Positions 24,210 through 64,000 of a DNA stretch of 64,000 nt are shown here, one piece after another. Source of the DNA: Diprion similis (Eukaryota > Arthropoda > Insecta > Hymenoptera > Diprionidae); the NCBI RefSeq assembly GCF_021155765.1, contig NC_060118.1, positions 6,200,001-6,264,000 on the forward strand, given 5' to 3'. Each line of letters begins with the position of its first letter. The stretch's first letter is position 1. Under the pieces are notes generated by a model. It saw only the letters and a program-made list of their open reading frames with translations. It had not been told where the DNA came from and ran no database searches. Position numbers and translations under genes: made by a program.

Positions 24210-24967
24210 CTGGAAGGAATACAATTACATGAATTGTGCTCAATCTGAAGTGTTCTACAGTGTCGGTAGTCAAAATCATTTTTTCGCGATAATGTGCGTA
24301 AAATTCAATTTCACACCACGAACCGACGAAGCGACTCTGAGAATGCCGGCGATCAGCATTCGAGTGTAAAACTGTCTTTTACACTCTAAATACATAATAT
24401 ACTATTATACTTTGAGAGTATTGCTGAGTAATAACATATCTATAGAGCTAAAATGAACTGAACAATTCTCAACATTCTGGTATGTATTTAAGTTGAGAAG
24501 AACCGATTGACTAAAATAAAAGTTCATTGTTATTGTTTGCAATAATTCGAAATCCCTGCAGTCCATTGATTAGTTTCAATTCAGTTAGGAAAAACAAATG
24601 AATCATATTCACGTTAAAACTGTTCTATTTCGATTTTTGAAAAGTATACTTTTCGGATTATATACACAAATATTTTCCAACATTTTGATACGCATGTATT
24701 TCATTACCAAGATGCAGATTGTTTTAGCAGATAAGAGTCGATAGAGGTTAAGTCAAAGTTCCGAAGAGATAGACGATATTAACCTACGGTATATAAACAG
24801 CTATGATTTACAATAAATTCGACAATTAATACAGTAATTACCCATTATTGTTACTTATTTATCACAATGCTATATTCCACCAGTCCCCGGTAGCTGTTCG
24901 CCGGAATTTGTACACTTGGCAGTTAATGCTGAGGTTAGCGCCACGAGGGAGTCAAGGGGGGGAGACA

Positions 24968-25402
24968 CAGTGTTGCCAGATAGCTCAATCAGCTTTCCTC
25001 CAAATCTGCCAACATTTGCCCCTAAATCCCCCTAAATTGGAACTAAAAATCCCCTAGATTTTTTCCTAATAAAATGGCGGGTACGGATGGCATTATGAAT
25101 GTATTGCACATGTTTTGCGCTGAGCGCAGACGGCCGAGACTATGGAGGCCGAGACAAAGCCAAACAAATGCGGTTGAGGTTGCCGCATTCATAAATAACA
25201 AATTCATAAATTTCTCTAAAATGATATTATTTCTGATCAAAAATCCATTTTAACTAATAAGGCAATGCGTGATTTCAATGCTTATGAGATCCAAAATAAA
25301 ACCCCCTGAAAAAACGCTGAAGATTCTTTTCCCCTAAATTTTCCCCTAGATGCTACAAAAATCCCTAAATCTAGGGGAAAAACCCCTGATTTGGCAACAC
25401 TG
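24968..25402. mobile_element. Non-autonomous hAT-type element with perfect 8-bp target duplication
   Basis: A 435-bp element bounded by CAGTGTTGCCA and its inverse TGGCAACACTG, flanked on both sides by GGGAGACA (24960-24967 and 25403-25410). An 8-bp target duplication and CAGTG-type termini are the hallmark of hAT transposons. Subterminal CCCCTAAAT and CTAGGGG words are repeated near both ends, as hAT transposase binding sites often are. It has no coding capacity. It lies between the divergent KRTCAP2 and SecA-like genes. The perfect duplication argues for a fairly recent insertion. Confidence 0.9.
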
Positions 25403-25410
25403 GGGAGACA

Positions 25411-26521
25411 TCGCCTGAATGCCTCTCATCCCTCTCATCTAGAGTTCATGGCATGTAAGCCACGTATACAAGGAGAACCAGCTACGCTACCGTGCTTGAT
25501 TCTAAACAGTGGTCAGGGAGAATAACTCAGGGTCTAGCCGGCAGATGGCGCTGTCGTTCACCTGGCCCATGGATATAGGAAATGCCGGTGAACGTCGACT
25601 GTCAGTCGTGTCGGAAAAGTCAACCCTGAGAACTATCTCACGCAAGAAAGAGGCGACATATAGATAGACCACGGTCTTACACACAGGTCAGGGCACTCTT
25701 GTGTATACCTAACGCTATCCTCACGCATTTCTCGTGGACAGATATGCGTTTCTTTTATAAGGACAATATTCTGGTTAGGACTATACAGAAAAAGACAGAG
25801 ATCCCCTGTTGAGCTATCTCTCTCTGCGAGCGAATGTGCTACCCGCACCACAAGTGTCCATTTTAGGGTGCGTTCCGATATTGGCTTCCAGTGCTGTGAA
25901 CAATCTTTTATCTCGTTTGCGCTTCCAAGTTTCCGTGTAGCTCTCCCTCTGTCCTAGGGAGTTTTTAGCGCTGCCAGCTAATTTAGAAACGCACCCTTAG
26001 TGATTTGGCCTGCGACTGCAGCGCCAATATGCGTGCCGAGGTTCTTTGAAGTACTAAGCACGGAACCAGTCAGCGTATTTCAAATTCTAGGCCGATCCGA
26101 TCTATCATACCACTTTCACTGTTCAGTGAATCATCACACCAGTGCATAAATTTTTGGTATTCCCCTCAAAGATATTTGTCTACATACTTTCGTCGGAGTT
26201 TGCAGATCGTTTTCTATAATTTGTCTACGATCGTGTTTGCTTTCAGTCAAAGAGTATTTCATTGAATATCATCTGTGATCCGTGCAGTGCTCGAAAGTTG
26301 TTCATAATCAAATACGTTCAGCCAGCCGTCGAATGTGATCTGTGTTTCTTTGATTTGCACGTGGTCCGAATAACCTGGTTCGTTCTTGGTTTGATATAGA
26401 AATACAATAACCGCGGCTTATTACTCTGGCAACTTGAGGTAAGTTTACAAATGAGGTATTTCCACATTAATCAACCTGTTCATACAAAAACATTATCCAG
26501 CCAATGTGGTGACTAACCAAA
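25411..26521 (+). promoter_or_regulatory. Upstream region and spliced leader of the SecA-like locus
   Basis: The region upstream of the giant reading frames. A strong donor (CTTGAG then GTAAGT, intron start 26439) and an acceptor (TTATCCAG, ending 26500) mark a 62-nt intron in the 5' leader, 21 nt before the start codon at 26522. The start has a good insect context (CCAAAATG). I did not identify a TATA box or a definite transcription start. The leader intron is the best evidence in the window that the locus is a transcribed eukaryotic gene and not contaminating bacterial DNA. The Harbinger-like MITE at 25866-25996 lies within this region. Confidence 0.5.
25866..25996. mobile_element. 131-bp Harbinger-like MITE
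   Basis: Ends GGGTGCGTTCC and GAAACGCACCC form an imperfect terminal inverted repeat of about 11 bp, flanked by TTA on both sides (25863-25865 and 25997-25999). Inside, CCAGTGCTG and CAGCGCTGCCAG are also inverted. A GGG terminus with a TWA duplication fits the PIF/Harbinger superfamily. It lies about 500 bp upstream of the SecA-like start codon. Confidence 0.75.
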
Positions 26522-29500
26522 ATGTATAGCTATATTGGTATTTCAAAACCAGAAGATACTTCGATGGACGAACAGCTGCACATCAAAGATGTTATTACAA
26601 CAGAAATTGAGACACGTCAACGAAATCTATCAGAAGTTAAAGAAATTATCAGAAACAATATTGAGAAATATAGAAATGAGTTGAGTTCAATTCAGGACAA
26701 TGATACCGATGATTCAAGAAAGGATGATGATGATGATATTACAGCATCAAAGACGAACGAATTCGGCATCTTTTCGATCCTTTTGAACTTCTTACATTTT
26801 ATCCCGCAGTTTTGCTACAATCTTATTACACCGTTTTATAAACGACTTTACAACAAAGATTCAGAACAGCATGAGAAGCAAAATACCAGAATATCACTGA
26901 GTACTATTGACCATTTGTACATTGATCGAAAATATGTTAAACACTGTTTGCGATTATGGCTTCGAGAGGTGGAAGACTTTACAAATAATTGCAGTATTGA
27001 CATTATTTCAGATATCCTTAGTTCACTGGATACTGTTCATGATTTAGTTCAAATACCTACACCATTAAACCAACTGATGTATTACAAACTTTTGATGGAA
27101 AATTGCGGAATCATTGGTAAAGATAATGAGAAGATATTTGTCAAAAAGTTCAAAGCAAAATTGTTACAACAAATAATTTTGGGTGACAATTCCATTAGAA
27201 ATGAACTCGATTTCATAACAGCTTTTAATGATTTCTTGTGCACTTTCAAAAATATTCAGCCAATTACTGAGGAGCTTAAGATGATCGATTTTATCAGTGA
27301 TTATCTACCGTTCAATAAATTTCTTGATGGAATTACAAATTTAAAGGCTGATCCGAATCGCCAAGAGCTTTTGAACTTGCAAGAAGTAGCAGGTTGCCTA
27401 GAAGCGAAAAAAGATTTTGCCCTGACTAAGAAATTCAAGGAAGTGGTTAGCGCTTATATGAAACCAATAGAAATACGAAGACAAAAACTAGACGGTCGAT
27501 TAGTGATCGAGGTCATAGGTAAACGTATTGTTCTCAGTCAAATTTTAACCCCGTTAGAAAGAGAGCTTTTAAGAAATAATTCTATAGAAGAAGTACGCAT
27601 TGTTGGAGCTGATATCTTATACATTGATGCTGACCTTAAAAAAAAGATTTGGCATGGAAAAAATTTAATCATTTTGGTGAAATCAATAAAAATTGATAGT
27701 AACATTACTTGGGATATTTCCGGACAAGATAACGATCATATTTATAACCAAAATGCTGGGACTGGAAATGATGGTCATGGTAAACGCGGAGCAGATGGTT
27801 TTGCTGGGGAAAGTGGTGGTAATGTATTATTACAAGCGGATGATATAAATAATCCAGATAAGTTAGTTATTAATTCCCATGGTGGAAAAGGTAGTAGAGG
27901 CCAAAACGGTGGAGATGGAACTGACGGTAAAGATGGAAAAGGTATTGAACGCACGGATTTTGACACAACGTTTCCCTCCGTTGTCAAATTTTGTGCACCT
28001 GAACCGATGTTGAAGAATTTACTATTGACAACTGTTTCTGCTATCGAGGATCGTACACAACGTATACAAAAAACTTCTTGCCATTCTGTCAGAATCAGCC
28101 AGGATTGGTTCATGCGTGAAGTAACAAACGAAGGAAACGAAATCATTTTTTCCTATTGTGGTCCTAATTTGGTAACGAATAATCAAGCTTTTTTGCTTTA
28201 CAGAGGATCACCAGGACAGCCAGGAAAACAAGGTGGAGAATACGGATTAGGCGGTCAGGGAGGATATGGTGGTGAAATTATGATAAATAATTTGAGTATT
28301 GCTTTTAATGCTAGACAAGGAAAAGATGGAGAAAATGGAAAAGGTGGCTGCTGTGGTGAATACGGAAAAAATGGCTGGGATATGGGCTACACTGATTATC
28401 AAATGTGGCCCGAAGCTAAATTTTATGGTAGAGATTACAAAAGCAAACTTGATATTGAGTACTTCACTAATCCTAATCATCCTGATGCTGTATGGTGTCC
28501 CGATGTACGAAAATGGGCTGTGATACGTACTTCTAACATTCCACACAGAAGATTAATGGCACATGAAGTGCGGAACAATATTAGACAAAATTATGAACGT
28601 CAGCATCAAGCAAATCCTACTAGGAAGAAAACCATTTCACAGAGTAAAATTTCAGCCGACTACTCTCATCATTTCAGCTCTGTAGAAGCTAATATTTCGT
28701 CAAATTTGCAGTCCAATTTCAACAACATTAATCAGATTGCTTTACAAGCAATGGCGAACAATATCGAGCAGCAAGAGGAGGTAACATCAGATGTAAGAGT
28801 GCAACGCCATATTAAATTCAGTGATCAGAATATCAGTAGCCGTTGTAAAAACATTGTGCCTGTAAGTACATCTAGCGTCGACTTGGAATGTAGCAATGAG
28901 TTGGATGTTCAAAGTCTGATTGATCAATGGAAAAATCACTCATTATCAGAAAATTGGCATAAATTGAAATGTGTGGAAATAAATAAATTGCAGCTTGGTG
29001 AACTAATTTCCGCATTTGAGATCATTAAATGCAAATTTTTTGACAACCAGGAATCTCAAAGTAGCCAAGAATATAACGAACTACTAGATATAGAGAAGCT
29101 TCTCAACTCAAAGTATCGATTTTCTATACTTCAAGAAGTTGCGACAAAACTACCTTTCCATGAAAATATTAATTATCAGCCGAAATTAACACCGGAAAGA
29201 GCAGCACTACATCTGGTTGTAGGCCGAGACAATCAAAACGATATTTCTCATGAATTTTTAGGTTGTCTCAACCAATATATTTACGCGGACGGGAAGAAAA
29301 AGCGAACAAAAGTTTTTCAATTCTGTAAAAGAAAATTAAATACTATAAATTATGAAGCCTTGTGGCCCTCTGTTAGAGCATTTGTTATCGAAGCTGGAAA
29401 ATCAGAACAAATAGATTCACATCTTGGCGAATACTATAATGAATATGTAAGGTTCTTAGGAAAACAGGAACAAAGATTAAATATATTCTTCGATTTATTT

Positions 29501-29584
29501 GAAAGTGAACTGAAACGGCACAGTGACATACATTCTCTATGGATCGATGCTAAAAATAATCCATTTTTGAAGGACGAACTATGA
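26522..29584 (+). CDS. Giant-locus first frame: glycine-rich protein of unknown function, in frame with the SecA-like frame
   Basis: 1020 codons, no intron, start in good context, ending with TGA at 29582. No whole-protein homology is recognised. The N-terminal 400 residues are helical and charged, with a hydrophobic patch near residues 79-105. From about 401 to 620 there are glycine-rich, collagen-like blocks (near 401-430, 454-478, 562-585 and 598-620; for example GSPGQPGKQGG). The C-terminal third is helical. Its last ~30 residues (motif SELKRHSDIHSLWI) are repeated about 249 codons later, inside the next frame (SELKRHKHVFALWI). The next frame starts six bases after the stop in the same reading frame, and the repeat alignment runs across the stop, so both frames were probably once one protein. 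The last four residues are KDEL, but no signal peptide is visible, so ER retention is unlikely. Compared with neighbouring genes the lack of introns is striking. Confidence 0.75.
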   Translation: MYSYIGISKPEDTSMDEQLHIKDVITTEIETRQRNLSEVKEIIRNNIEKYRNELSSIQDNDTDDSRKDDDDDITASKTNEFGIFSILLNFLHFIPQFCYNLITPFYKRLYNKDSEQHEKQNTRISLSTIDHLYIDRKYVKHCLRLWLREVEDFTNNCSIDIISDILSSLDTVHDLVQIPTPLNQLMYYKLLMENCGIIGKDNEKIFVKKFKAKLLQQIILGDNSIRNELDFITAFNDFLCTFKNIQPITEELKMIDFISDYLPFNKFLDGITNLKADPNRQELLNLQEVAGCLEAKKDFALTKKFKEVVSAYMKPIEIRRQKLDGRLVIEVIGKRIVLSQILTPLERELLRNNSIEEVRIVGADILYIDADLKKKIWHGKNLIILVKSIKIDSNITWDISGQDNDHIYNQNAGTGNDGHGKRGADGFAGESGGNVLLQADDINNPDKLVINSHGGKGSRGQNGGDGTDGKDGKGIERTDFDTTFPSVVKFCAPEPMLKNLLLTTVSAIEDRTQRIQKTSCHSVRISQDWFMREVTNEGNEIIFSYCGPNLVTNNQAFLLYRGSPGQPGKQGGEYGLGGQGGYGGEIMINNLSIAFNARQGKDGENGKGGCCGEYGKNGWDMGYTDYQMWPEAKFYGRDYKSKLDIEYFTNPNHPDAVWCPDVRKWAVIRTSNIPHRRLMAHEVRNNIRQNYERQHQANPTRKKTISQSKISADYSHHFSSVEANISSNLQSNFNNINQIALQAMANNIEQQEEVTSDVRVQRHIKFSDQNISSRCKNIVPVSTSSVDLECSNELDVQSLIDQWKNHSLSENWHKLKCVEINKLQLGELISAFEIIKCKFFDNQESQSSQEYNELLDIEKLLNSKYRFSILQEVATKLPFHENINYQPKLTPERAALHLVVGRDNQNDISHEFLGCLNQYIYADGKKKRTKVFQFCKRKLNTINYEALWPSVRAFVIEAGKSEQIDSHLGEYYNEYVRFLGKQEQRLNIFFDLFESELKRHSDIHSLWIDAKNNPFLKDEL

Positions 29585-29590
29585 ATAGAG

Positions 29591-32500
29591 ATGAGCAAAC
29601 ACAATTTTTTAAATGCCCTTTACGATCGATTCATTAAACAGCCTAAGCAAATGTATAATTGGAAGAAATGCTGCCAAAATCAAAACGTGTTGAATAAATG
29701 GAGTGAACACATTTGTGCAAAGGGTCCACTATCAGATAGCTATAGAGAGTTATTAGCTCATGTTTTTAATGTGAACATCCGATTATACATTGAAGATGAA
29801 GATAACAAACTGCATTTATTTGACAATCACAAACCTTCATCTGATCAGAATATCCACATCTTACTACGTGGTTCCAGGTTTATTCAACTGAAGTTCAATA
29901 AGAATTACTTGGACTTAGAAAATGCATGTAACAAAAACGAAAGCTTATACGCATACATGTTGGCAGAGTTCAAAGCGTTGAATAAAAAAGATGATTATGA
30001 TAAATTTTTGGACATACAAACTTTGTTATCCGATTCGAGATTTTGTGGAAACGATTACTATACGATCACCGAAGAAATGGAAAGATTTCAAAGCCCGGAC
30101 ACGAAAGTTATAACATCTACAGGATCATTAAATTTAGAAGTTGGAAAATCAAACCAAATCTATTCAGACATTGAGAAGTATGACTACAATTGTGAAGAGT
30201 CATCAGAAAAACAACAAAATGGTTCAGGCGTATTTTTTGAATGTTTTCACAGTGAACTAAAAAGACACAAACATGTCTTTGCTCTATGGATTGAAAGTAT
30301 AAAACAACCTTCTGTCAACAATGAACTGGAGAAAGAGATTCAGAAACATGAATTTTTGAATGGTCTGTATAATCGTTTTATTAATGAACTCAGCTCAGAA
30401 TTCGATTTGACTAAATACGCTAACGATGCAGTTATTTTTCGAGAATCTAATAATCATATTCCTGCAAGAAGATTATTGTCCAAAAGCTGTACAGATTTGC
30501 ATTGTGACTTGATAAAAAATTACCATGAACTAGAAACAGAGTATATAAACCAAAGCAATAAGTTTATACAGGTCTTTGCACAAATTGTGTCGTTTGATAG
30601 AAAAGAAGAATTTGCAGAATATTTGAAAAAATTAATGTATGTTTCAAATGCCAACTTTCTAAAACATCATGCTGTTAGCGAAGAGCAAGAAATTATCACA
30701 ATTTCGGAGTACTTTACAGATCCAGAAGAACGCTCACAGATAAAAAAACGATTAGAAAAAATAACGTCACAGTACTCTGGTTATCAGGGTATTTTACGCA
30801 CAGTGTCAAAGCGTTTTGCCAACGATGGAAGACACGTGTCTTTTCAAGAATTATGCTGTGTAGTAAACTCGATTCTTACCTCTGTTGTCGAAGATCGAAA
30901 CGAACAGAACACTTTTTCCTGGATAATCGCAGCATATCCCCAAAAAAACTGGATAGATGAGTTGGTATTGCTGCAGATAGAGAAATTTTTACAACAACCA
31001 TCAGTACATAAATCCAAATGGAGAGAGTATTTGTCGAAGATAGAAAATAAGGAAGTTGTCTTATTATTCAGATCGAAACTAAATCAACAAAAGTCAACCT
31101 GTCCAATTTCCAATAAGTGTATTGAAGATACTCTACACCTACTTAGTAATATTTCCGACCAGATAGTCGGTTTGGAAGAACTCGAATTATCAGCGTGGGC
31201 TTATACTCTCAAGGAGAGATATTGGACACACAAGTTATCTCTGTTAACAAATTGGCAGCAACCTGAAATGTTATCGAAAGCTTCTTATTATCTCATGTCT
31301 GTGGAAAATACTTTTGGGATGATTTTGATCGAAAAATTTCTACAAATTGTAGAAAAAAAAAATTTTAATTCTAATTTGGTGACTAATATTTTATCAAAAT
31401 TCCACAGTGGTGACTGGAATCTGGACACAGAAGTATTGGACACCTTATCTTCTAGTGATATTGATAAATGGGAAGAGGTAATGAACCATAAGTTTATCGG
31501 AGATGGAAAAGAACGTGATGTGAAACGATTGATCAAATTAATTACTGACAATGCCAATACTTCACAAAGCATACGCGATGAATTACCCGAAATTGAAAAT
31601 GATATCAGTAATATTGATAGACAAACACCTGTAACAAATGCAAATCCAAATTCTACAAGCAATATAATAGAAAACACTATCACAGAGGACTCGAGAGTAC
31701 ATGAAAAAAACTTACAATTGCTTGCTGAAATAGATGATGCAATAGAATTAAAAAGAGGATTCAAACTTCGAGATACCCAAAAACTAGCCATACTGGTTTT
31801 ACTTTCACATAAACGCAATACTCTAGCACAGGTATCGACTGGAGAAGGAAAATCGCTGATTGTAGTAGCAGCGTCGATTATATTAACGCGTCGTGGCGAA
31901 AAAGTTGATATCATAACTAGCTCGTCAGTATTAGCAAAACGTGATGCCGAAAATAACAAAGACATCTACGACTTGTTTGATGTCAGTGCATCGCATAACT
32001 GTAATGAGAATATTGAAAAGCGAAGAGAAGCATATTCAAATAGCCAAGTAGTATTTGGTGATTTATCTAGTTTTCAGCGTGACTACTTGCAGGATCGATT
32101 TTACGGACAAAACATCTTAGGGGATCGTAACTTTGAAAATGTAATTGTGGATGAAGTGGATAGCATGCTACTTGATAAAGGCAACAATATGTTGTACTTG
32201 TCCCACGATCTAGCAGGATTGGATAAGCTACAATCGATCTACATTTATATTTGGCAATGGGTCAACAGACCAGCCAAAAGTCAAGAAGATCTTTCCTTAG
32301 CGCTTGACGCCAAGTTGATTAAAGAAGCAGTGCTAAACGACTTATATGGTATGATAACGAAAGAAGATATAACCAAACTTAGTTCCGAGCTGGATGAGCA
32401 GCAAGTAAAAACGATGTGGGAATGTTTGATAGAAGGAAATATATTAGACGACCACGGTAAAATATTAATAACACATATCAATGATGATGAATTTGAAATT

Positions 32501-35500
32501 CCACTTCCAACTGCACTTAATGCTTATCAAAGTCGTCTTCGTTACCTTTTAAAAGAATGTATTGCAAGAGACAGATTCATACATGTCCCCAATTATCTCA
32601 AACCTTTTATTGAACAGCACTTGGATACTTGGATTAATAACGCCATAATTGCAGTTGGTATGCGAGAATGTCATGATTACGTAATAGATGTAGATAGAAC
32701 TGGAACTAGTTCAGACCTTCATCCAAATATTACGATTCTTGACAGAGACACTGGAACAGATCAAGCCAATTCTCAATGGGACGAAGCATTGCATCAATTT
32801 TTGCAACTTAAGCATGGGTGTAAGTTGTCTACGCAAAGTTTGAAGGCTATCTTCATTTCTAACGTTACATACTTGAAACGTTATTGGCATTTATATGGGC
32901 TGACAGGTACTTTGGGATCACAAAGAGAAAGAGAGTTGCTAAAGGAGATACACAGCGTCGATTTTGTTACAATTCCTACAGCCAGACCAAAGCAATTTTA
33001 CGAAGATACACCTCGTCTTTGTCATACGAAGGAAAAATGGATTGAAGAAATATTTGTAGAGGCAAAGAAACTCACTGTAGAAAAAGAACGATCAGTGTTA
33101 ATTATCTGCGAAACGATAGATGATGCGAACACGTTACATAGAGAATTTATAAAAAAGGGTGCAATAAACGTCCACACATATACCAGAGACTATGAAGAGT
33201 TTGATGTAGCTCAAGGTAATCGATATCTAGACCAGGGACAGATTATTATTGCAACAAACCTTTCTGGTCGTGGAACCGACATAAAAATCACAAACCAATT
33301 GAGGAAAGCTGGAGGATTACATGTTTGCTTAACTTATTTACCAAACAATAGCAGAGTGGAACAGCAAGCATTTGGCCGCACATCGCGAAATGGAGACAAA
33401 GGTTCCGGTCAGCTAATCGTTATGGTCTCAGATGGACTAAAACATGGTAACTCGAAAATATTGGAGCTCAAAAAACAACGTGATGCGGAAGAGTTGTCCC
33501 GTATATCAGAAATCAAAACCTACTATGAAACTCAAATTACAACAGAGGAACGATGCCTGAGTGAATTCCAGAAACAGTACGAAGATTCCTTGAAGAGAAA
33601 TCTCGTTAAGAACGGTGTATGTACTGAAATTACAAAAATCCTATTACAAAGTTGCTTAGATCAGTGGGCCTTCTGGCTAGATCGAAACAATAAATGCATT
33701 AAAAATTCGACTGATGAATCTAGTAAAGCAGATTTCGAAAAATCGTTGAATAATTTTATTAATCAATTGAAGCATTTGAAATCTCAGAATTTCAGAAACT
33801 GGTTACTTTGGGTTGACGAACAGCCAATTCATATGATAAAATTGGGAAAATATTTCATTAAAAATAAACAGTATACCGAGGCTATTAAATTGTTCGAAAA
33901 AGTAATTGATCAAGAACCACACTTTTCCGAAGCTGCTCATTATTATAAAGCGTTTGCAATGATTAAAACAATTGACTGGGAGAATAACTCTGTAGATGAA
34001 CAAAATTTAGAACAGATGAAATCACACTTACGAGATGCTTCGCGTCTTTTCAATGAGCACAGTAATTTCTCTATGTACACAGCTAGTCTTATCACAAATA
34101 TGAAACAGTTCAATTACAATAGCATTGTCCAAATCAACACCTACGTAGAGCAACAAACGAGTCTAAGTCACTTATACTCTATTTTTGCACAATCCATCGA
34201 TGAAGTTTTGGGTCAGCCTGTGACTGCAGAATCGTTTATTAATCATACAGATGTCGATGAAGAGTTAGCAGAATTTATACACGAAGATCTAGTTGCTTAT
34301 AATATTTTCAAAATGCCAAGTATCGAAACTAAAATTTCCGAAGAAGCACTAAACAGAATTAGTTTCGACTGTGGAATATTTGTTGATGAGCTCAGAGAAT
34401 TTCTTTCTGTATCCAAAGGTAAAGAAATTGATGAGAAACTGTTTTCCGAATTAAAACACAAGATCAAATTACCTAGTAAGGAATATTTCTGGAAATTATC
34501 AGTTGAGGAAAATATTTTGTATCAGGAAACTAAGTGCATTATAATTAATGTTGAAAATATGAAACGAGTTGACCCTTCGTTGTTGAATTTACTTCGTACT
34601 AAAATTGATGAAGAAGAGTTTGAACAACAAACCTTGGAATGTAATCATGCAAATGAAATCGCCCTCCATGGGCAACAGGATATGGCTCAAAACAATTTCG
34701 ATTTGCAAATGAACGATTGTATTGTACTTAAAAAAAGTGATTTCAAAGAGGCGATAGCTAATAATGATGAGAAATATCGAGCTTTAAAAAAAAGGGGGGT
34801 TATATTGTGCAATAAAAAAGCATGTGTGAACATCTGGAAAATTGCATCCACAAATCTTCCTTTCTATGATTCTGTAACGCTCGAAAATTTTATTTCGGTA
34901 AATATTCCTAAAAATGATGCTGATAAAATTTTAGCAGATCTTGTCGAGCAAAGGGTTCTTGCAAAAGACAAATCAACAAGCCATGTCTATCGGCTGATGA
35001 TTCTGTACTATGAAATTGACCAAATCCGACTTCCGTCTTATCCAATTTATCAAAATGCCGTCAGAGCATTATTGCTACGGTGCTTCATCTATAGAATCGC
35101 TCTTCAAAAAATCGAAAATCAATCCACAGACCCATACGTCCCTATATGCCTGAACTTACCGAGTCGTCCACACAATAAACTAATCTTTGAATTAACAGAT
35201 CATAGAATTATTAGCTTTGATAGGGTTAACAAGAAAACAGTGGATTTTGAAAAAAATTTGAAAGGCATTTATAATGAAATGTTGACCATACAAGAATTAA
35301 GAGCTATGCTTTTTCGAAACAAAATTATTCCAACAATAAGGAATATTAAACCACTTTGTGACCATCTAGTTACACATGGTTGGCTTTCTCTACATGAATC
35401 CAAGTATTCTATCAATGAATCTAACAAAAGACAAGCACTTACGCAATTCAAAAATATTGAAGAAACAATGAGGCAGGTTTTAGACAGACGATTACAACTC

Positions 35501-37411
35501 AGTAAACAAGAAACGCTTAAACACGTTATCAAAACTTTACAAGAATCAGGTGGTATTTTAGAATCCTTATATGCTCCTGACAGTCGTCTAACACCTCTGA
35601 CAGAATCTGTGGCTTTTAATAAACTTGTGAAGATAGAGGAAGTCCGTATATTCAATTTGAATGGCTTAGATGAAATTTTACGATTAGAAGAAAAGAAATG
35701 GACAAGAAAAATGATTTTCAATACAGCAACGGTGATAGTAGGAGGAGTGTGTCAAATAGGTTTGGGTACTGTGATAGAATACTTTTCAATGGGAGTTATG
35801 AATAACTTTGGCACTGCATTTTTTACCGAAGGTATAAGCGATATCTGGTATGGAATTAATGCTTTTAAATCAGGATATATTAGTTGGAAAGATTATAAAC
35901 AAAATAAGATTCAGAATATGATAATGACAACTCTGACATGTGGTGTAGGAGCATATATTTCGCGAGGCACTAAAGTTTCCAGTTTTGGTCATAAAATAAC
36001 TGGACCTAGCTTAGAACTTAGTGGGAAACTAACTAAAAGTTCCGGTTATGAATTGATGAAAACTGTTGGGACGGTAGGCATCGTGAAGGAGGTAGGAAAA
36101 CGTATTACATCCAAAACTGTAAATACAATAGCATCTGGATTAGCCAATGTAGGCGTTGATGTGTTCGTTAAAAGAAAACTACAAGTTTTGTGCAATGGTA
36201 TAAGATCTGCAATTCTATCAGATATCGAAAAACAGGTAGGAAATCATTTTGTTATGGCAAAATTAGAAGCTATGTATAGAAAACTGGGAAAAATTGAAGC
36301 CAAGAAAATGGTTAACGATCTGACTGAGAGTTTCTTTTCTAAACGAAGTATAATGGAAATAATTCTTCCTATTGCGTTGCCAATAGTTAATGCTATAACT
36401 CGAAAAATAACCAATGCTATTAAACAGTTTTTACGCTCAGGAAAATGTCTACAAAATTTTCTTATTCAAACTATCACCAAAATTCTGGCGCTAATTCCCG
36501 GAGTAAAATATCTCGTACAAGCTGACAAAGTAAGAAAATTAACGAATAATTTTTTGGATACCGTAGATAAAAAACTGACGGATCTATTAGACAATAATGA
36601 ATCTAATGTAAATTCTAATCGGGAGATACTTGAAGAAGCACAGACAAGAGATGACTGTGAGAGTTTTAAAAACGAAGTAATCGCGCAGTGGAAATTGTTG
36701 CTTCATGATGAAGCAGGACATTTAATTGAACAAGAAATTGTAAGCCCTATTCTTAACGAAGGTGTCGTCCGATTGGTTAGATGTTGCGAAAATGTAATGA
36801 AAAAACAATATAAAGGTATCACACAAAGAAAATATAATAAACACATTGAACAGCTGAAGCAAACTTTCCAAAAGAATCATCAAAGTACTGAAATCCGTAA
36901 GCCTAGTGACCAGATTACATTCAGACGCTACATACAGAATGAGTATCATAAGAACCTACTCAAATTGACTGCTAAAACTAAAAATTTAAAATTATTTGCC
37001 GCTATTGTCCGAGAAAATGCTCCAATGGACTTGGCTTGTATCGATGTATGTCATCAAGCAGTAAGTAAAATATTAGAAAAGCAAGGTATTGCAGGATTTA
37101 ATCTTAATGTTAAAGTAAAAGGTATTACAAGATACAAATTCTCTTCTGTTAAGAAAACAAGAGTACCGGGAAAAATCAAAGGTAAAATAGTTGAACTTGA
37201 CCTGAAGGATAATCAGTTTCGACTTCATAGAAGTGGTACATCGACGAAAACTGCAGATAGCAAAGCTAAAAATAATTGTTTGTATGAGGCCTTATTAGGA
37301 CAAATAAATTTGAGCATGGATGCTAAAGTATTCAGAGCTGAGGTTGCTAACTGCATTGAACAAAATCCCAACATACGATATCGAAGTAAACAGGATTGGT
37401 CTGTGTCGTAA
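29591..37411 (+). CDS. SecA-like motor protein with TPR-like, membrane-like and split OTU-like segments
   Basis: 2606 codons without an intron. The middle is a SecA-type DEAD motor. Walker A TGEGKS is at 750-755 and the DEVDS box at about 854-858; WDEALHQ lies before TGT at 1105-1107. Further on come IPTARP, then ATNLSGRGTDI (1221-1231), GGLHV, and an arginine-finger motif GRTSRNGDKGSGQ from 1262. The order and wording follow bacterial SecA, the ATPase that pushes preproteins through SecYEG. A TPR-like helical pair (KYFIKNKQYTEAIKLFEKV) lies near 1420-1440. Hydrophobic segments are near 2041-2090, 2113-2126 and 2254-2278. NNCLYEAL near 2561-2568 resembles an OTU cysteine-protease active site, but only 43 residues follow. 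An OTU-like C-terminal half (HVFNVNIRLY, NIHILLRG) is at about 54-93, without a His at the expected place. Real translocase activity is doubtful in an animal; the function is unknown. It may be read as an extension of the preceding frame. Confidence 0.85.
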   Translation: MSKHNFLNALYDRFIKQPKQMYNWKKCCQNQNVLNKWSEHICAKGPLSDSYRELLAHVFNVNIRLYIEDEDNKLHLFDNHKPSSDQNIHILLRGSRFIQLKFNKNYLDLENACNKNESLYAYMLAEFKALNKKDDYDKFLDIQTLLSDSRFCGNDYYTITEEMERFQSPDTKVITSTGSLNLEVGKSNQIYSDIEKYDYNCEESSEKQQNGSGVFFECFHSELKRHKHVFALWIESIKQPSVNNELEKEIQKHEFLNGLYNRFINELSSEFDLTKYANDAVIFRESNNHIPARRLLSKSCTDLHCDLIKNYHELETEYINQSNKFIQVFAQIVSFDRKEEFAEYLKKLMYVSNANFLKHHAVSEEQEIITISEYFTDPEERSQIKKRLEKITSQYSGYQGILRTVSKRFANDGRHVSFQELCCVVNSILTSVVEDRNEQNTFSWIIAAYPQKNWIDELVLLQIEKFLQQPSVHKSKWREYLSKIENKEVVLLFRSKLNQQKSTCPISNKCIEDTLHLLSNISDQIVGLEELELSAWAYTLKERYWTHKLSLLTNWQQPEMLSKASYYLMSVENTFGMILIEKFLQIVEKKNFNSNLVTNILSKFHSGDWNLDTEVLDTLSSSDIDKWEEVMNHKFIGDGKERDVKRLIKLITDNANTSQSIRDELPEIENDISNIDRQTPVTNANPNSTSNIIENTITEDSRVHEKNLQLLAEIDDAIELKRGFKLRDTQKLAILVLLSHKRNTLAQVSTGEGKSLIVVAASIILTRRGEKVDIITSSSVLAKRDAENNKDIYDLFDVSASHNCNENIEKRREAYSNSQVVFGDLSSFQRDYLQDRFYGQNILGDRNFENVIVDEVDSMLLDKGNNMLYLSHDLAGLDKLQSIYIYIWQWVNRPAKSQEDLSLALDAKLIKEAVLNDLYGMITKEDITKLSSELDEQQVKTMWECLIEGNILDDHGKILITHINDDEFEIPLPTALNAYQSRLRYLLKECIARDRFIHVPNYLKPFIEQHLDTWINNAIIAVGMRECHDYVIDVDRTGTSSDLHPNITILDRDTGTDQANSQWDEALHQFLQLKHGCKLSTQSLKAIFISNVTYLKRYWHLYGLTGTLGSQRERELLKEIHSVDFVTIPTARPKQFYEDTPRLCHTKEKWIEEIFVEAKKLTVEKERSVLIICETIDDANTLHREFIKKGAINVHTYTRDYEEFDVAQGNRYLDQGQIIIATNLSGRGTDIKITNQLRKAGGLHVCLTYLPNNSRVEQQAFGRTSRNGDKGSGQLIVMVSDGLKHGNSKILELKKQRDAEELSRISEIKTYYETQITTEERCLSEFQKQYEDSLKRNLVKNGVCTEITKILLQSCLDQWAFWLDRNNKCIKNSTDESSKADFEKSLNNFINQLKHLKSQNFRNWLLWVDEQPIHMIKLGKYFIKNKQYTEAIKLFEKVIDQEPHFSEAAHYYKAFAMIKTIDWENNSVDEQNLEQMKSHLRDASRLFNEHSNFSMYTASLITNMKQFNYNSIVQINTYVEQQTSLSHLYSIFAQSIDEVLGQPVTAESFINHTDVDEELAEFIHEDLVAYNIFKMPSIETKISEEALNRISFDCGIFVDELREFLSVSKGKEIDEKLFSELKHKIKLPSKEYFWKLSVEENILYQETKCIIINVENMKRVDPSLLNLLRTKIDEEEFEQQTLECNHANEIALHGQQDMAQNNFDLQMNDCIVLKKSDFKEAIANNDEKYRALKKRGVILCNKKACVNIWKIASTNLPFYDSVTLENFISVNIPKNDADKILADLVEQRVLAKDKSTSHVYRLMILYYEIDQIRLPSYPIYQNAVRALLLRCFIYRIALQKIENQSTDPYVPICLNLPSRPHNKLIFELTDHRIISFDRVNKKTVDFEKNLKGIYNEMLTIQELRAMLFRNKIIPTIRNIKPLCDHLVTHGWLSLHESKYSINESNKRQALTQFKNIEETMRQVLDRRLQLSKQETLKHVIKTLQESGGILESLYAPDSRLTPLTESVAFNKLVKIEEVRIFNLNGLDEILRLEEKKWTRKMIFNTATVIVGGVCQIGLGTVIEYFSMGVMNNFGTAFFTEGISDIWYGINAFKSGYISWKDYKQNKIQNMIMTTLTCGVGAYISRGTKVSSFGHKITGPSLELSGKLTKSSGYELMKTVGTVGIVKEVGKRITSKTVNTIASGLANVGVDVFVKRKLQVLCNGIRSAILSDIEKQVGNHFVMAKLEAMYRKLGKIEAKKMVNDLTESFFSKRSIMEIILPIALPIVNAITRKITNAIKQFLRSGKCLQNFLIQTITKILALIPGVKYLVQADKVRKLTNNFLDTVDKKLTDLLDNNESNVNSNREILEEAQTRDDCESFKNEVIAQWKLLLHDEAGHLIEQEIVSPILNEGVVRLVRCCENVMKKQYKGITQRKYNKHIEQLKQTFQKNHQSTEIRKPSDQITFRRYIQNEYHKNLLKLTAKTKNLKLFAAIVRENAPMDLACIDVCHQAVSKILEKQGIAGFNLNVKVKGITRYKFSSVKKTRVPGKIKGKIVELDLKDNQFRLHRSGTSTKTADSKAKNNCLYEALLGQINLSMDAKVFRAEVANCIEQNPNIRYRSKQDWSVS

Positions 37412-38280
37412 ACAATTTATATATACCAGTATTATATCGTTATGAATTTAATTGTTACATACAATTGAAATACATAAATATTTGTCAATTGTCACAAACA
37501 TGTATTCTTATAAGATTCCTGAGAAATTAAGTGGTCAGTGCAAATCTTCGGACATACTGGTTTTTATGCTACTCACTCTTCATGTCTGATATTGAAATTG
37601 TTAATTGCAACTCAGTTTTTCACTTTTATCTTAGATTAACAAACTCCTGAAACGATATAATATAAGTTCGAAGTCGTGTTTCTTTCCACAATAACATGGT
37701 TTATGACCACTGTTGCAAAAAGAATGAAAATGTTGGATACAAGTCCAAGACCTTCCAAATACGTTAATCCTATGTTTTAGTATCTTATGTCTATGATCCG
37801 AATGAAATCCAATTGTTACCAATACGATAATTCATAATGAAAACTTCCCAGATTTTCTTTTAAGATTATTGTAACTAGTGTTAGTAATCACAATTTGGCT
37901 AGTTCGAAATGTTTCAAATCGTTACAATGCTAACTGAACATTTTTAAATATTTTGGCAAACCAAAGCGAGCTAACAGAGTGTAAAGTTCAATCTAAGCGT
38001 ACTAATATTCCCAGTCTTTGTACAGCAGAAATTGCCGTTATAGAGATTTTACGACTGAAAAAATGCCAGAATTAATATCATACAAGTACAATAATATTTT
38101 ACCATCCTGATTTTAATTTTCCATCAAAACTTCATGGCCAGTTGAAATTTTTCTCAATGACAATTTCTGTTATAAATTACACTTATAGCAATATGATAAC
38201 GTATATTCCAAGGCAAGAAACATATGCACATTTAAATCAACTATGTAAGCTTTTCAAGTATCTGTATTCCTTCAAGTCAG

Positions 38281-38690
38281 CAGTTTTCTTGTAAGTTGCA
38301 TCCCAGTGCACTCGATGGGCTACTGAGGAACTACAAATATTACGATGAAAAAATTTCATTTATTGAGGCCTTGTCACAACAACCATCGCAGTTGATACGA
38401 TTGCTATATAATCCGCTATCCCGAGCTCACAACAGATCAGCTTTAACTTCTGGAAGAATGAGGAAATGTTGCTCATTCCCAGACTTGGTAAGTAAGCAAC
38501 GATAGACCTTTCTTTAGTAGAAACTACCATACAGGTTTTTAATCAAATAATTCTCTCTTCCAGTCCATCTTCTGAAGACACTCGTCAAAAAGTAAAGAGA
38601 ACCAGAGCAAGAAAACCAGTCTGGCACTTATCGTCAGCTGTTTGTAAAAAAGCTGGATCGTTAGATGAAACGCCATTCTCTTTCTGATTT
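38281..38690 (+). other. Possible orphan exons
   Basis: A stretch open from 38234 reads through LHPSALDGLLRNYKYYDEK and ends at a strong donor (GACTTG then GTAAGTAAG, intron from 38491). A strong acceptor (TCTCTCTTCCAG) ends at 38563. Splicing these gives only three more codons and a stop. In a different phase the second piece stays open for 40 codons (from PSSEDTRQK). The splice sites are good but the phases disagree, as in a decayed gene or a short C-terminal exon. No family is recognised. Confidence 0.25.
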
Positions 38691-58129: not shown

Positions 58130-58449
58130 TTGAAAACCCTGTGAAAATTTGACGTGCTTTGACGGTTACTTTTGAGGATTTGCTGGTAGGTTTCGATAGG
58201 TGTGTTGGAACTGTGTTCAATCGATTGGTCGCGTAGAAGTAGGTCGGAATAGTGCATAAAAGAATTGTTTCCGGCATTTTTCAAAATCGTCGACATTTTC
58301 ACCAACAATCCAGAGGGGTAAGCCTTACGTTTTTCGAGGCCAAAAATCTTTTCGACTCGGATTCGACTTGTACGACCCTTTCTCCACTAATCGGACCCCC
58401 AAAAACTCAGAAAACACATGCAAGAGAGCGTAGGACCAACAACTGAGAA
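58130..58449 (+). repeat. Diverged edge monomer of the 312-bp satellite
   Basis: A full-length but degenerate monomer. It contains GGTCGGAATAGTGCAT, TCCAGAGGGGTAAGCCTTAC, ACTCAGAAAACACATG and GCGTAGGACCAACAACTGAG, all recognisable against the core monomer. It leads directly into the regular array. Confidence 0.8.
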
Positions 58450-61400
58450 ATGACGATGAAAATCTTCAGTTTTTCAGCCGTAACTTTTCAGCTGTCGCTC
58501 GCAGCGTATTGGGACTGCGCTCAATCGAATCCTCTCGAAAAAATACGTCGGAATGGTGGCTCAAAAACTTATTTGCAGCTTTTTCAAAAGTCGTCGAAAT
58601 TTTCGCCAAAAATCCATAGGGGTAAGCCTTACTCTTTGGTCATTTTCGGAGCTGAAAATTTCTCGTCTCGAAATCAATTAGTATGACCATCTCTAGAGTA
58701 ATTCGACCCCCAGGAACTCAGAAAACACTTCAAAAAGTGCGTGAGGTCGGCAGTAGGGAAATGACGATAAGAATCATGAGTTTTTCGGCCGTAACTTTTC
58801 AGCTATCGCTCGCAGCGTATTGGGACTGCGCTCAATCGATTCCTCTCAAGAAATTACGTCGGAATAGTGCCTCAAAAAATTGATTGCAGCTTTTTCATAA
58901 GTCGTCGAAATTTTCGCCAAAAATCCAAAGGGGTAAGCCTTACTTTTTTGGTCATTTTTGGAGCTGAAAATTTCTCGTCTCGAAATCAATTAGTATGACC
59001 ATCGCTAGAGTAATTCGACCCCCAGGAACTCAGAAACACTTCAAAAAGAGCGAAGGACCAGCAGCAGGGAAATGACGATAAAAATCATGAGTTTTTCGGC
59101 CGTAACTTTTCAGCTATCGCTCGCAGCGTATTGGGACTGCGCTCAATCGATTCCTCTCGAGAAATGACGTCAGAATGGTGCCTCCAAAAATTGATTGCAG
59201 CTTTTTCAAAAGTCGTCCAAATTTTTGCCAAAAATCCAAAGGGGTAAGCCTTACTTTTTTGGTCATTTTCGGAGCTGAAAATTTTTCGTCTCGAAATCAA
59301 TCAGTATGACCATCTTTAGAGTAATTCGACCCCCAGGAACTCAGAAAACACTTCATGAAGTGCGTAGGGCCAGCAGCAGAGAAATGACGATAAAAATCAT
59401 GAATTTTCCGCCCGTAACTTTTCAGCTATCGCTCGCAGCGTATTGGGACTGCGCTCAATCGATTCCTCTCGAAAAATTACGTCGGAATAGCGCCTCAAAA
59501 AATTGATTGCAGCTTTTTCAAAAGTCGTCGAAATTTTCGCCAAAAATTCAAAGGGGTAAGCCTTACTTTTTTGGTCATTTTTGGAGCTGAAAATTTCTCG
59601 TCTCGATATCAATTAGTATGACCATCTCTAGAGTAATTCGACCCCCAGGAACTCAGAAAACACTTCAAAAAGAGCGTAGGACCAGCAGCAGAGAAATGAC
59701 GATAAAAATCATGAGTTTTTCCGCCGTAACTTTTCAGCTATCGCTCGCAGCGTATTGGGACTGCGCTCAATCGATTCCTCTCGAAAAATTACGTCGGAAA
59801 AGTGCCTCAAAAAATTGATTGCAGCTATTTCAAAAGTCGTCGAAATTTTCGCCAAAAATTCAAAGGGGTAAGCCTTACTTTTTTGGTCATTTTTGGAGCT
59901 GAAAATTTCTCGTCTCGAAATCAATTAGTATGACCATCTCCAGAGTAATTCGACCCCCAGGAACTCAGAAAACACTTCAAAAAGAGCGTAGGACCAGCAG
60001 CAGAGAAATGACGATAAAAATCGTGAGTTTTTCGGCCGTAACTTTCCAGCTATCGCTCGCAGCGTATTGGGACTGCGCTCAATCGATTCCTCTCGAAAAA
60101 TTACGTCGGAATAGCGCCTCAAAAAATTGATTGCAGCTTTTTCAAAAGTCGTCGAAATTTTCGCCAAAAATCCAAAGGGGTAAGCCTTACTTTTTTGGTC
60201 ATTTTCGGAGCTGAAAATTTTTCGTCTCGAAATCAATTAGTATGACCATCCTTAGAGTAATTCAACCCCCAGGAACTCAGAAAACACTTCATAAAGTGCG
60301 TAGGGCCAGCAGCAGAGAAATGACGATAAAAATCGTGAGTTTTTAGGCCGTAACTTTTCAGCTATCGATCGCAGCGTATTGGGACTGCGCTCAATCGATT
60401 CCTCTCGAAAAATTACGTCGGAATAGTGCCTCAAAAAATTGATTGCAGCTTTTTCAAAAGTCGTCGAAATTTTCGCCAAAAATTCAAAGGGGTAAGCCTT
60501 ACTTTTTTGGTCATTTTTGGAGCTGAAAATTTCTCGTTTCGAAATCAATTAGTATGACCATCTCTAGAGTAATTCGACCCCCAGGAACTCAGAAAACACT
60601 TCAAAAAGAGCGTAGGACCAGCAGCAGAGAAATGACGATAAAAATCGTGAGTTTTTCCGCCGTAACTTTTCAGCTATCGCTCGCAGCGTATTGGGACTGC
60701 GCTCAATCGATTCCTCTCGAAAAATTACGTCGGAATAGTGCCTCAAAAAATTTATTGCAGCTATTTCAAAAGTCGTCGAAATTTTCGCCAAAAATTCAAA
60801 GGGGTAAGCCTTACTTTTTTGGTCATTTCTGGAGCTAAAAATTTCTCGTCTCGGAATCAATTAGTATGACCATCTCTAGAGTAATTCGACCCCCAGGAAC
60901 TCAGAAAACACTTCATAAAGTGCGTAGGGCCAGCAGCAGAGAAATGACGATAAAAATCATGAGTTTTTCCGCCGTATCTTTTCAGCCATTGCTCGCAGCG
61001 TATTGGGACTGCGCTCAATCGATTTCTCTCGAAAAATTACGTCGGAATAGTGCCTCAAAAAATTGATTGCAGCTTTTTCAAAAGTCGTCGAAATTTTCGC
61101 CAAAAATCCAAAGGGGTAAGCCTTACTTTTTTGGTCATTTTCGGAGCTGAAAATTTTTCGTCTCGAAATCAATCAGTATGACCATCCTTGGAGTAATTTG
61201 ACCCCCAGGAACTCAGAAAACACTTCATAAAGTGCGTAGGGCCAGCAGCAGAGAAATGACGATAAAAATCATGAATTTTCCGCCCGTAACTTTTCAGCTA
61301 TCGCTCGCAGCGTATTGGGACTGCGCTCAATCGATTCCTCTCGAAAAATTACGTCGGAATAGTGCCTCAAAAAATTGATTGCAGCTATTTCAAAAGTCGT

Positions 61401-64000
61401 CGAAATTTTCGCCAAAAATTCAAAGGGGTAAGCCTTACTTATTTGGTCATTTTTGGGGCTGAAAATTTCTCGTCTCGAAATCAATTAGTATGACCATCTC
61501 TAGAGTAATTCGACCCCTAGGAACTCAGAAAACACTTCAAAAAGAGCGTAGGACCAGCAGCAGAGAAATGACGGTAAAAATCATGAGTTTTTTTGCCGTA
61601 TCTTTTCAGCCATCGCTCGCAGCGTATTGGGACTGCGCTCAATCGATTCCTCTCGAAAAATGACGTCGGAATAGTGCCTCAAAAAATTGATTGCAGCTTT
61701 TTCAAAAGTCGTCGAAATTTTCGCCAAAAATCCAAAGGGGTAAGCCTTACTTTTTTGGTCATTTTTGGAGCTGAAAATTTCTCGTCTCGAAATCAATTAG
61801 TATGACCATCTCTAGAGTAATTCGACCCCCAGGAACTCAGAAAACACTTTAAAAAGAGCGTAGGACCAGCAGCAGAGAAATGACGGTAAAAATCATGAGT
61901 TTTCCGGCCGTAACTTTTCAGCTATCGCTCGCAGCGTATTGGGACTGCGCTCAATCGATTCCTCTCGAAAAATTACGTCGGAATAGTGCCTCAAAAAATT
62001 TATTGCAGCTTTTTCAAAAGTCGTCGAAATTTTCGCCAAAAATCCAAAGGGGTAAGCCTTACTTTTTTGGTCATTTTCGGAGCTGAAAATTTTTCGTCTC
62101 GAAATCAATCAGTATGACCATCCTTGGAGTAATTTGACCCCCAGGAACTCAGAAAACACTTCATAAAGTGCGTAGGGCCAGCAGCAGAGAAATGACGATA
62201 AAAATCATGAATTTTCCGCCCGTAACTTTTCAGCTATCGCTCGCAGCGTATTGGGACTGCGCTCAATCGATTCCTCTTGAAAAATTACGTCGGAATAGTG
62301 CCTCAAAAAATTGATTGCAGCTATTTCAAAAGTCGTCGAAATTTTCGCCAAAAATTCAAAGGGGTAAGCCTTACTCTTTTAGTCATTTTTGGAGCTGAAA
62401 ATTTCTCGTCTCGAAATCAATTAGTATGACCATCTCTAGAGTAATTCGACCCCTAGGAACTCAGAAAACACTTCAAAAAGAGCGTAGGACCAGCAGCAGA
62501 GAAATGACGATAAAAATCATGAGTTTTTCGGCTGTATCTTTTCAGCTATTGCTCGCAGCGTATTGGGACTGCGCTCAATCGATTCCTCTCGAAAAATTAC
62601 GTCGGAATAGTGCCCCAAAAAATTGATTGCAGCTTTTTCAAAAGTCGTCGAAATTTTCGCCAAAAATCCAAAGGGGTAAGCCTTACTTTTTTGGTCATTT
62701 TCGGGGCTGAAAATTTTTCGTCTCGAAATCAATTAGTATGACCATCTTTAGAGTAATTCGACCCCCAGGAACTCAGAAAACACTTCATCAAGTGAGTAGG
62801 GCCATCAGCAGAGAAATGACGATAAAAATCATGAGTTTTTCCGCCGTAACTTTTCAGCTATCGCTCGCAGCGTATTGGGACTGCGCTCAATCGATTCCTC
62901 TCGAAAAATTACGTCGGAATAGTGCCTCAAAAAATTGATTGCAGCTTTTTCAAAAGTCGTCGGAATTTTCGCCAAAAATTCAAAGGGGTAAGCCTTACTT
63001 TTTTGGTCATTTTTAGAGCTGAAAATTTCTCGTCTCGAAATCAATTAGTATGACCATCTCCAGAGTAATTCGACCCCCAGGAACTCAGAAAACACTTCAA
63101 AAAGAGCGTAGGACCAGCAGCAGAGAAATGACGATAAAAATCGTGAGTTTTTCGGCCGTAACTTTCCAGCTATCGCTCGCAGCGTATTGGGACTGCGCTC
63201 AATCGATTCCTCTCGAAAAATTACGTCGGAATAGTGCCTCAAAAAATTAATTGCAGCTATTTCAAAAGTCGTCGAAATTTTCGCCAAAAATTCAAAGGGG
63301 TAAGCCTTACTTTTTTGGTCATTTTTAGAGCTGAAAATTTCTCGTCTCGTAATCAATTAGTATGACCATCTCCAGAGTAATTCGACCCCCAGGAACTCAG
63401 AAAACACTTTAAAAAGAGCGTAGGACCAGCAGCAGAGAAATGACGATAAAAATCATGAGTTTTTCGGCCGTATCTTTTCAGCCATTGCTCGCAGCGTATT
63501 GGGACTGCGCTCAATCGATTCCTCTCGAAAAATTACCTCGGAATAGTGCCTCAAAAAATTGATTGCAGCTTTTTCAAAAGTCGTCGAAATTTTCGCCAAA
63601 AATTCAAAGGGGTAAGCCTTACTTTTTTGGTCATTTTTGGAGCTGAAAATTTCTCGTCTCGAAATTAATTAGTATGACCATCTCTAGAGTAATTCGACCC
63701 CCAGGAACTCAGAAAACACTTCATAAAGTGCGTAGGGCCAGCAGCAGAGAAATGACGATAAAAATCATGAGTTTTTCCGCCGTAACTTTTCAGCTATCGC
63801 TCGCAGCGTTTTGGGACTGCGCTCAATCGATTCCTCTTGAAAAATTACGTCGGAATAGTGCCTCAGAAAATTGATTGCAGCTATTTCAAAAGTCGTCGAA
63901 ATTTTCGCCAAAAATTCAAAGGGGTAAGCCTTACTTTTTTGGTCATTTTTTGAGCTGAAAATTTCTCGTCTCGAAATCAATTAGTATGACCATCTCCAGA
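58450..64000 (+). repeat. 312-bp satellite array, about 18 monomers, running off the window
   Basis: Head-to-tail monomers of 312 bp. The ATGACCATC landmark recurs at 58683, 58995, 59306, 59618, 59930, 60242, 60554 and so on to 63986. The one 311-bp step comes from a single lost A. Monomers are highly similar to one another in the core and less so at the left edge. Each contains GTATTGGGACTGCGCTCAAT and GGGGTAAGCCTTACTTTTTT. Recurring frames of 66 codons (+) and 71 codons (-) result from homogenisation of a 3n-length unit, and I do not call them genes. Monomers fall into at least two subtypes, with AAAAAGAGCGTAGGACC or ATAAAGTGCGTAGGGCC. The array continues past 64000. Confidence 0.95.

Follow-up and report, generated by a model that had tools for sequence, protein, structure and literature searches.

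The stretch of DNA analysed here (the window) comprises 64,000 nucleotides of the insect Diprion similis (C14:6,200,001-6,264,000 in a 269 Mb assembly of 60 contigs). It carries a gene for a giant protein built around a SecA-like motor core. The gene consists of two open reading frames, ORF1 and ORF2, which lie in one shared frame on the + strand and are separated by a single in-frame TGA. Its features are as follows.

26439..26500, + strand: candidate intron of 62 nt within the 5' untranslated region, GAG/GTAAGT ... TCCAG/CC, inferred from sequence
26522..29584, + strand: ORF1, 1020 codons plus TGA, forming the gene's N-terminal part, with start context ACCAAAATG
27734..28414 (approximate), + strand: glycine-rich stretch of ORF1, read from the translation
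29369..29581, + strand: internal protein repeat, first copy, at the end of ORF1 (residues 950-1020), 37% identical to ORF2 176-246
29582..29584, + strand: lone in-frame TGA separating ORF1 and ORF2, with the repeat register kept across it
29591..37411, + strand: ORF2, giant SecA-like protein, 2606 codons
30116..30328, + strand: internal protein repeat, second copy (ORF2 176-246), matching ORF1 950-1020
31673..33460, + strand: SecA-like motor core (ORF2 695-1290), from Pfam, a family model and the predicted structure
31838..31855, + strand: Walker A motif TGEGKS (ORF2 750-755)
32150..32164, + strand: Walker B motif DEVDS (ORF2 854-858)
33263..33283, + strand: motif V, SGRGTDI (ORF2 1225-1231), with GRGTD from residue 1226
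33374..33394, + strand: motif VI, GRTSRNG (ORF2 1262-1268)
33467..34207, + strand: helical/TPR module following the core (ORF2 1293-1539), from an iterated profile
35639..36238, + strand: hydrophobic module (ORF2 2017-2216), from an iterated profile

Reading frame and SecA motor core

An earlier sequence-only reading of this DNA had described a 2606-codon frame at 29591-37411 on the + strand, which we recovered as described. Position 29591 is not the beginning of the coding frame, however: it runs from 26522, 3 kb upstream, and ORF2 is the larger part of a frame that is broken by one TGA. Shuffling the 10.9 kb 200 times produced no ORF longer than 174 codons, and the real ORFs are thus not products of chance. 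The end of ORF1 resembles a second copy of the same repeat inside ORF2, and ORF2 1-54 is 33% identical to ORF2 250-303; in both copies three codons separate the repeat halves. Because the halves are in register on either side of the TGA, the stop sits within an unbroken repeat, and no letter has been inserted or deleted there. ORF1 is single-copy in the genome, and so is the C-terminal part of ORF2, the internal repeat aside. The candidate intron contains the sole GTAAGT, GTGAGT or GTAAGA of positions 25,501-26,600; as gene signals, it and the ORF1 start context are suggestive only. Antisense to ORF2 there is a 225-aa open frame with an ATG start (window 31288-31965, - strand), which is probably a shadow ORF produced by the coding strand.

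To judge from sequence, the interruption is light. At equal rates 5.4% of single changes are nonsense, and one stop with no frameshift in 3626 codons (10,878 coding bases) implies neutral substitution of about 0.8% at most (one-sided 95% Poisson). So little neutral change means either that the protein has been selected or that it arrived recently from an unsampled donor. With a single TGA, the present product may be ORF2 alone or two products, or the gene may be beginning to decay. Translation from ORF2's own ATG just past the TGA, or a stop that is polymorphic or erroneous, appears likelier than a long-standing loss.

The sequence-only reading had also reported the SecA motor motifs in canonical order, and we located them in ORF2 at residues 750-1268: besides the motifs listed above, WDEALHQ starts at 1063, TGT at 1105 and GGLHV at 1241, and the ATPase motifs follow the expected order. 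Profile searches gave the SecA signal that this reading predicted. Pfam SecA_DEAD (PF07517) matched with E 2.7e-34 (119.2 bits against a cut-off of 24.6) and P-loop_SecA with E 7.9e-11 (42.4 bits against 27). Eight NCBIfam SecA/SecA2 models also matched (4.6e-51 to 7e-32), every one far under its own cut-off; the best reached 173.8 bits against the 862 that NCBI sets for a canonical SecA or SecA2. All 24 distinct PDB sequences that matched ORF2 at E <=1 were SecA, and a confident predicted model of the core returned SecA in 36 of its 36 top Foldseek matches. In VIA superpositions the model covered 576 residues of SecA 6itc, compared with 362 of the isolated SecA motor 3bxz. It superposed on full-length SecA through model residue 731, with about 19-27% identity in the structural alignments. 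Taken together, profiles, motif order and predicted overall fold place the ORF2 core in the SecA superfamily.

The core shares with canonical SecA (E. coli, B. subtilis) the DEAD-motor fold, Walker A and B, and motifs V and VI. It differs in that the PPXD (PF01043) and SecA_SW (PF07516) profiles found no match to ORF2 in Pfam, PF01043 having been one of the two domains that the sequence-only reading had named for a profile check, although the model aligns with SecA to residue 731. The C-terminal zinc site was likewise found in ORF2 neither as a pattern nor as a Pfam match. This site is also missing from some SecA2 proteins. The end of ORF2 (NNCLYEALLGQI) looked OTU-like; a Pfam search at E <=10 gave no such domain, and the assignment was dropped.

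Module layout and bacterial relatives

When 84,980 prokaryote species were scanned, the best 80 of 209 matches, which were the ones used, included giant proteins in Rickettsiales, Legionellales, Parachlamydiales and Bacteroidota, as named in the record titles; many are metagenome-assembled genomes (MAGs). Most of these taxa presumably live inside cells. The top plasmid matches were also giant bacterial proteins, from Candidatus Megaera polyxenophila, Bandiella (a protist symbiont according to its record) and Legionella geestiana. The 5225-aa protein of M. polyxenophila (plasmid CP113870) is 34% identical across ORF2 708-1459 (3e-97).

In a tree of 87 rows, the insect protein fell inside a 34-row clade of giants with a Shimodaira-Hasegawa-like approximate likelihood ratio (SH-aLRT) of 100, separate from ordinary SecA. 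The 87 rows derive from 91 core hits, after removal of two L001 rows (copies of L004; such handles denote our loci), the partial L008 and a second ORF of L019. A careful tree of 42 rows chosen out of the 87 grouped the insect protein with L023, a Legionellales MAG, L025, an unplaced bacterium, and L028, a Francisellaceae MAG with a long branch, at 100/99; both MAGs are gammaproteobacterial. In the approximately unbiased (AU) test, a clade of the 29 giants of the 42-row tree that excludes the insect protein was rejected (p 0.0013), and so was a grouping of the insect protein with seven Rickettsiales and viral rows (p 6e-7).

The bacterial giants also share the layout of the insect protein. When profiles seeded from the insect protein were iterated, 26 of 33 giant rows proved to hold the TPR module, compared with 0 of 54 other rows; for the hydrophobic module the counts were 25 of 33 and 1 of 54. 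The 33 rows are the 34-row clade minus the insect; they contain the near-copy pairs L003/L021, L017/L018, L034/L035 and L006/L007 and two viral contigs. The 54 comprise ordinary SecA plus other SecA-like proteins, some of them long. Since the TPR profile reaches into the last of the tree columns, its count is not independent of the grouping; the hydrophobic profile has no such overlap. Of the eight giant rows without a hydrophobic module, four (L012, L017, L025 and L029) stop at a contig edge. The order of core, TPR module and hydrophobic module is identical in the insect protein and the bacterial giants, among them those of Megaera CP113870, the L. geestiana plasmid, the Rickettsia of Culicoides newsteadi (L009), and L023, L025 and L028. 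L023 matches ORF2 491-894 and 954-1664 collinearly, and ORF2 2016-2121 as well. In two of the three nearest relatives a glycine-rich part, weakly similar to that of ORF1, lies upstream of the SecA core: just upstream in an overlapping ORF of another frame in L023, and inside the protein in L028; the L025 contig ends short of the region.

Of the added segments that the sequence-only reading had described, the hydrophobic module (2017-2216) stands; the TPR character is weak, with one Pfam repeat under the cut-offs. No 19-residue stretch of ORF1 or ORF2 attains a hydropathy of 1.6, the criterion that we set ourselves, unpublished, for a membrane-like segment. By this criterion such a segment is present in all 11 bacterial modules examined (of 25), while the insect module stays under the threshold. 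The predicted structure of the hydrophobic region is of too low a quality to serve in a fold search (pLDDT 51.2, pTM 0.33). The same reading had proposed lateral origin followed by elaboration in the host; our comparisons favour the first part, and since bacterial giants carry these modules in the same order, elaboration in the host is not needed.

Furthermore, these giants travel on phage-like or mobile DNA, as seen on the phage-like Megaera plasmid and the contig L007. The plasmid (L001/L004/L005) carries 5225-aa and 1589-aa SecA-like genes in tandem and phage-type genes (terminase-like, RecT-like). L007, an IMG/VR contig and near-copy of L006, bears a 3557-aa giant SecA-like frame near a terminase large subunit (phrog_38, 4.5e-73), together with a Protochlamydia outer-membrane-type gene. 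Against phages, ORF2 matched 24 records, and among the 20 rows listed the matches lie within the SecA core alone; used on its own to query viral contigs, it gave no pattern match. ORF1 matched no phage or plasmid.

The search for a donor covered three orders at set thresholds. Matches were obtained in 29 of 261 genomes for the order of L035 (Rickettsia by title), 109 of 143 for that of L023 (Legionellales by title) and 9 of 11 for that of L028 (Francisellaceae by title). Most matches in the latter two orders, and a few in the Rickettsia order, were frames of 840-940 aa, which we took for ordinary SecA. None of the three orders' matches was placed nearer to the insect protein in a 62-row tree or scored higher than the giants already known; scoring was limited to each genome's top candidates, and a closer donor is not thereby disproved. 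The 62-row tree combines about 37 rows used earlier with new loci above 300 bits, with most near-copies and fragments left out; L094 and L104 are one gene entered twice.

Three further observations concern these relatives. At L023:6674-13396 the glycine-rich and SecA parts occupy ORFs that overlap and differ in frame, which may be separate genes, a frameshift or an assembly error. A Clostridia contig has the hydrophobic module twice (L053:4756-5751 and L053:1976-4375), one of the copies lying in a SecA-like frame that does not belong to the giant clade. In the Rickettsia-order search, one genome (G222) gave 80 first-look candidates and contained SecA-like pieces that were repeated and broken, which suggests that the family has been amplified in that genome.

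Chromosomal setting and competing explanations

The locus had been read as an insect nuclear locus between animal genes, and the assembly agrees with this. Exons of animal genes flank it on both sides: KRTCAP2 (6e-48), SH3 (3e-18) and a syntaxin-like gene (3e-11) 20 kb off. The assembly contains 103 matches of 7tm_6, which we take to be the insect odorant-receptor family, and these mark the host as an insect. Two dispersed host repeats lie in the 5' flank.

24967..25403 (approximate), strand not assigned: dispersed host repeat, 71-93% identity matches on many other contigs
25863..26001 (approximate), strand not assigned: second dispersed host repeat, 74-95% identity matches on many other contigs

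The repeat search of this flank listed 51 matches, the window itself among them, with 40 of 400 candidates scored. The last repeat ends about 520 bases from ORF1. On the 3' side, up to 40,500, the assembly search returned no match but the flank itself, which does not prove that the sequence is rare. The CpG ratio is 0.91 at the ORFs and 1.11 across the window, a difference of little weight given how scant the host coding sequence is. Farther off, a 312-bp satellite array occupies window 58205-64000, up to the window end (18.6 copies, 93% match), and a 342-bp unit stands in tandem triplicate at 492-1517 (97% matches).

On these data the gene, single-copy and nuclear in the insect, quite probably descends from bacterial giant SecA-like accessory ATPases, and it is most likely another arthropod SecA gene of the published type. 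On present sampling, the sequence comparisons indicate that the descent is bacterial; the gene would have passed from a bacterium into an ancestor of the insect, its giant architecture arriving as one. Several points weigh against this. The TGA interrupts the frame. In the 62-row tree the support for the sister group drops to SH-aLRT 88, with its interior unresolved, and the groups compared in the AU test were named only after the tree was seen. The sister rows share just 27-33% identity with the insect protein over the aligned stretch, and the rows of highest identity, at 37-38% (L009, L016 and L117), are not those that the tree gives as sisters. With every relative at 38% identity or less, no donor has been sampled. 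The direction of transfer rests on one animal sequence in the trees. ORF1 similarity is weak: for L028 E is 9e-6 against three chosen loci and 0.002 against 2,395 ORFs, and for L023 it is 0.063. VIA scores for some SecA entries are just 25-31, equal to those of some helicases.

The strongest competitor, which we regard as possible though unlikely, is compatible with bacterial descent: a recent bacterial arrival without function, decaying in place, with the TGA as its first lesion. The in-frame TGA fits such a history, as does the absence of AATAAA, ATTAAA and AGTAAA from 37,401-38,590. Third-position GC points the same way, at 0.295 and 0.303 in the ORFs (0.30 when rounded) against 0.41 in each of two host exons, which are a thin yardstick. 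However, neutral substitution is about 0.8% at most, yet the bacteria sampled are no more than 38% identical, and an unsampled donor would be required.

Transfer in the opposite direction, in which bacteria such as L023, L025 and L028 acquired an old arthropod family of giant SecA from animals, seems improbable. It draws on published work. Bordenstein 2016 lists SecA among the phage WO domains whose homology to invertebrates exceeds that to bacteria (PMC5062602), and Martinez 2022 describes arthropod SecA genes without close bacterial homologues, with Wolbachia copies falling within arthropod lineages and read as arthropod-to-Wolbachia transfers (PMC9680635), which also counts against bacterial descent. 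On the other side, a family with the same modules extends across Rickettsiales, Legionellales, Chlamydiota and Bacteroidota (by record titles), the insect row is nested, with a clade of giants that excludes it rejected, and L023 sits among genes of a bacterial chromosome (aconitase, proline dehydrogenase, permease).

That a bacterial contig was mis-joined into the insect assembly is very improbable, even though the nearest kin are bacterial genes. A profile search of the 269 Mb found PF07517 once, at this locus, whereas an ordinary SecA frame of 851-910 aa, separate from the giant, was present in six of six bacterial genomes tested; a substantial set of bacterial contigs is therefore unlikely. 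The host repeats and flanking host genes described above also speak against a mis-join. Finally, an ordinary host helicase that merely resembles SecA is scarcely credible, given that the 36 top Foldseek matches were all SecA and that more of the model superposed on SecA 6itc than on the isolated motor 3bxz.

Published SecA genes and a possible role

The insect gene, of bacterial descent on the reading preferred here, likely belongs with the published arthropod SecA genes, beside which we set it by description. Like those arthropod genes, which are shared with Wolbachia (wHa_3920/3930; L3551_05645/05650), it places a SecA domain in an arthropod genome. The Wolbachia pair L3551_05645/05650 measures 4,491 and 11,664 bp (PMC9680635), one smaller and one large, and the larger is similar in length to the 10.9 kb of the insect gene. 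For these genes, compared here by description only, the authors report that homology is closer to invertebrates or that close bacterial homologues are lacking. None of our loci could be recognised by its name as a Wolbachia copy. The pairing of a large and a smaller gene is common to the Megaera plasmid CP113870 and the Wolbachia pair (PMC9680635). Another large phage WO gene has homologues lying between ant genes (Bordenstein 2016, PMC5062602), and a phage WO genomics paper speaks of an 'eukaryotic-like' secA (PMC9203015). The present gene is not named in any report that our literature search found. The main texts of a paper on horizontal gene transfer (HGT) in 163 ants and of a Metazoa HGT compendium contain no SecA or translocase, nor, in the former, secretion. 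The SecA passages of PMC7397232 and PMC9111745 treat ordinary SecA or its neighbours and were of no help. In giant secreted actinobacterial proteins (PMC8195603), likened by description only, a SecA-like ATPase is likewise built into a giant multidomain protein, although the other domains and the phylum differ.

Compared with the bacterial giants, the insect gene is nuclear and single-copy, carries one in-frame TGA, lacks a clear membrane segment in its hydrophobic module, and is at most 38% identical. Most likely, as far as sequence can tell, it encodes a putative bacterial accessory motor, inherited and retained though carrying one stop. SecYEG is not known from animals. We tentatively propose, on a model whose mechanism comes from the fold alone, which counts against it, that the protein may be an ATP-driven polypeptide-handling motor working without SecYEG. 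The SecA core would grip a protein chain and move it; recruitment of a substrate or partner would fall to the TPR module together with the N-terminal repeats, and the C-terminal module, which is membrane-like in bacteria, would formerly have served as an anchor. Because the hydrophobic module of the insect lacks clear membrane character, a soluble role in remodelling proteins is the likelier guess. A bolder version, which we think rather doubtful, is that the animal nucleus has adopted a whole bacterial protein-threading machine, recruiting and anchoring modules included, which might work without SecYEG, for example by pulling apart proteins of intracellular microbes, and which would now be starting to split into two products.

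Arthropod SecA genes are already in print; new here are the bacterial giants with a common layout, the nested position in the tree and the interrupted frame. Earlier authors had described arthropod SecA without close bacterial kin and Wolbachia copies as animal-derived, and the giants that enclose the insect protein now offer a plausible bacterial source. These findings raise the question of what use an animal may have for a bacterial protein motor whose channel is missing there.
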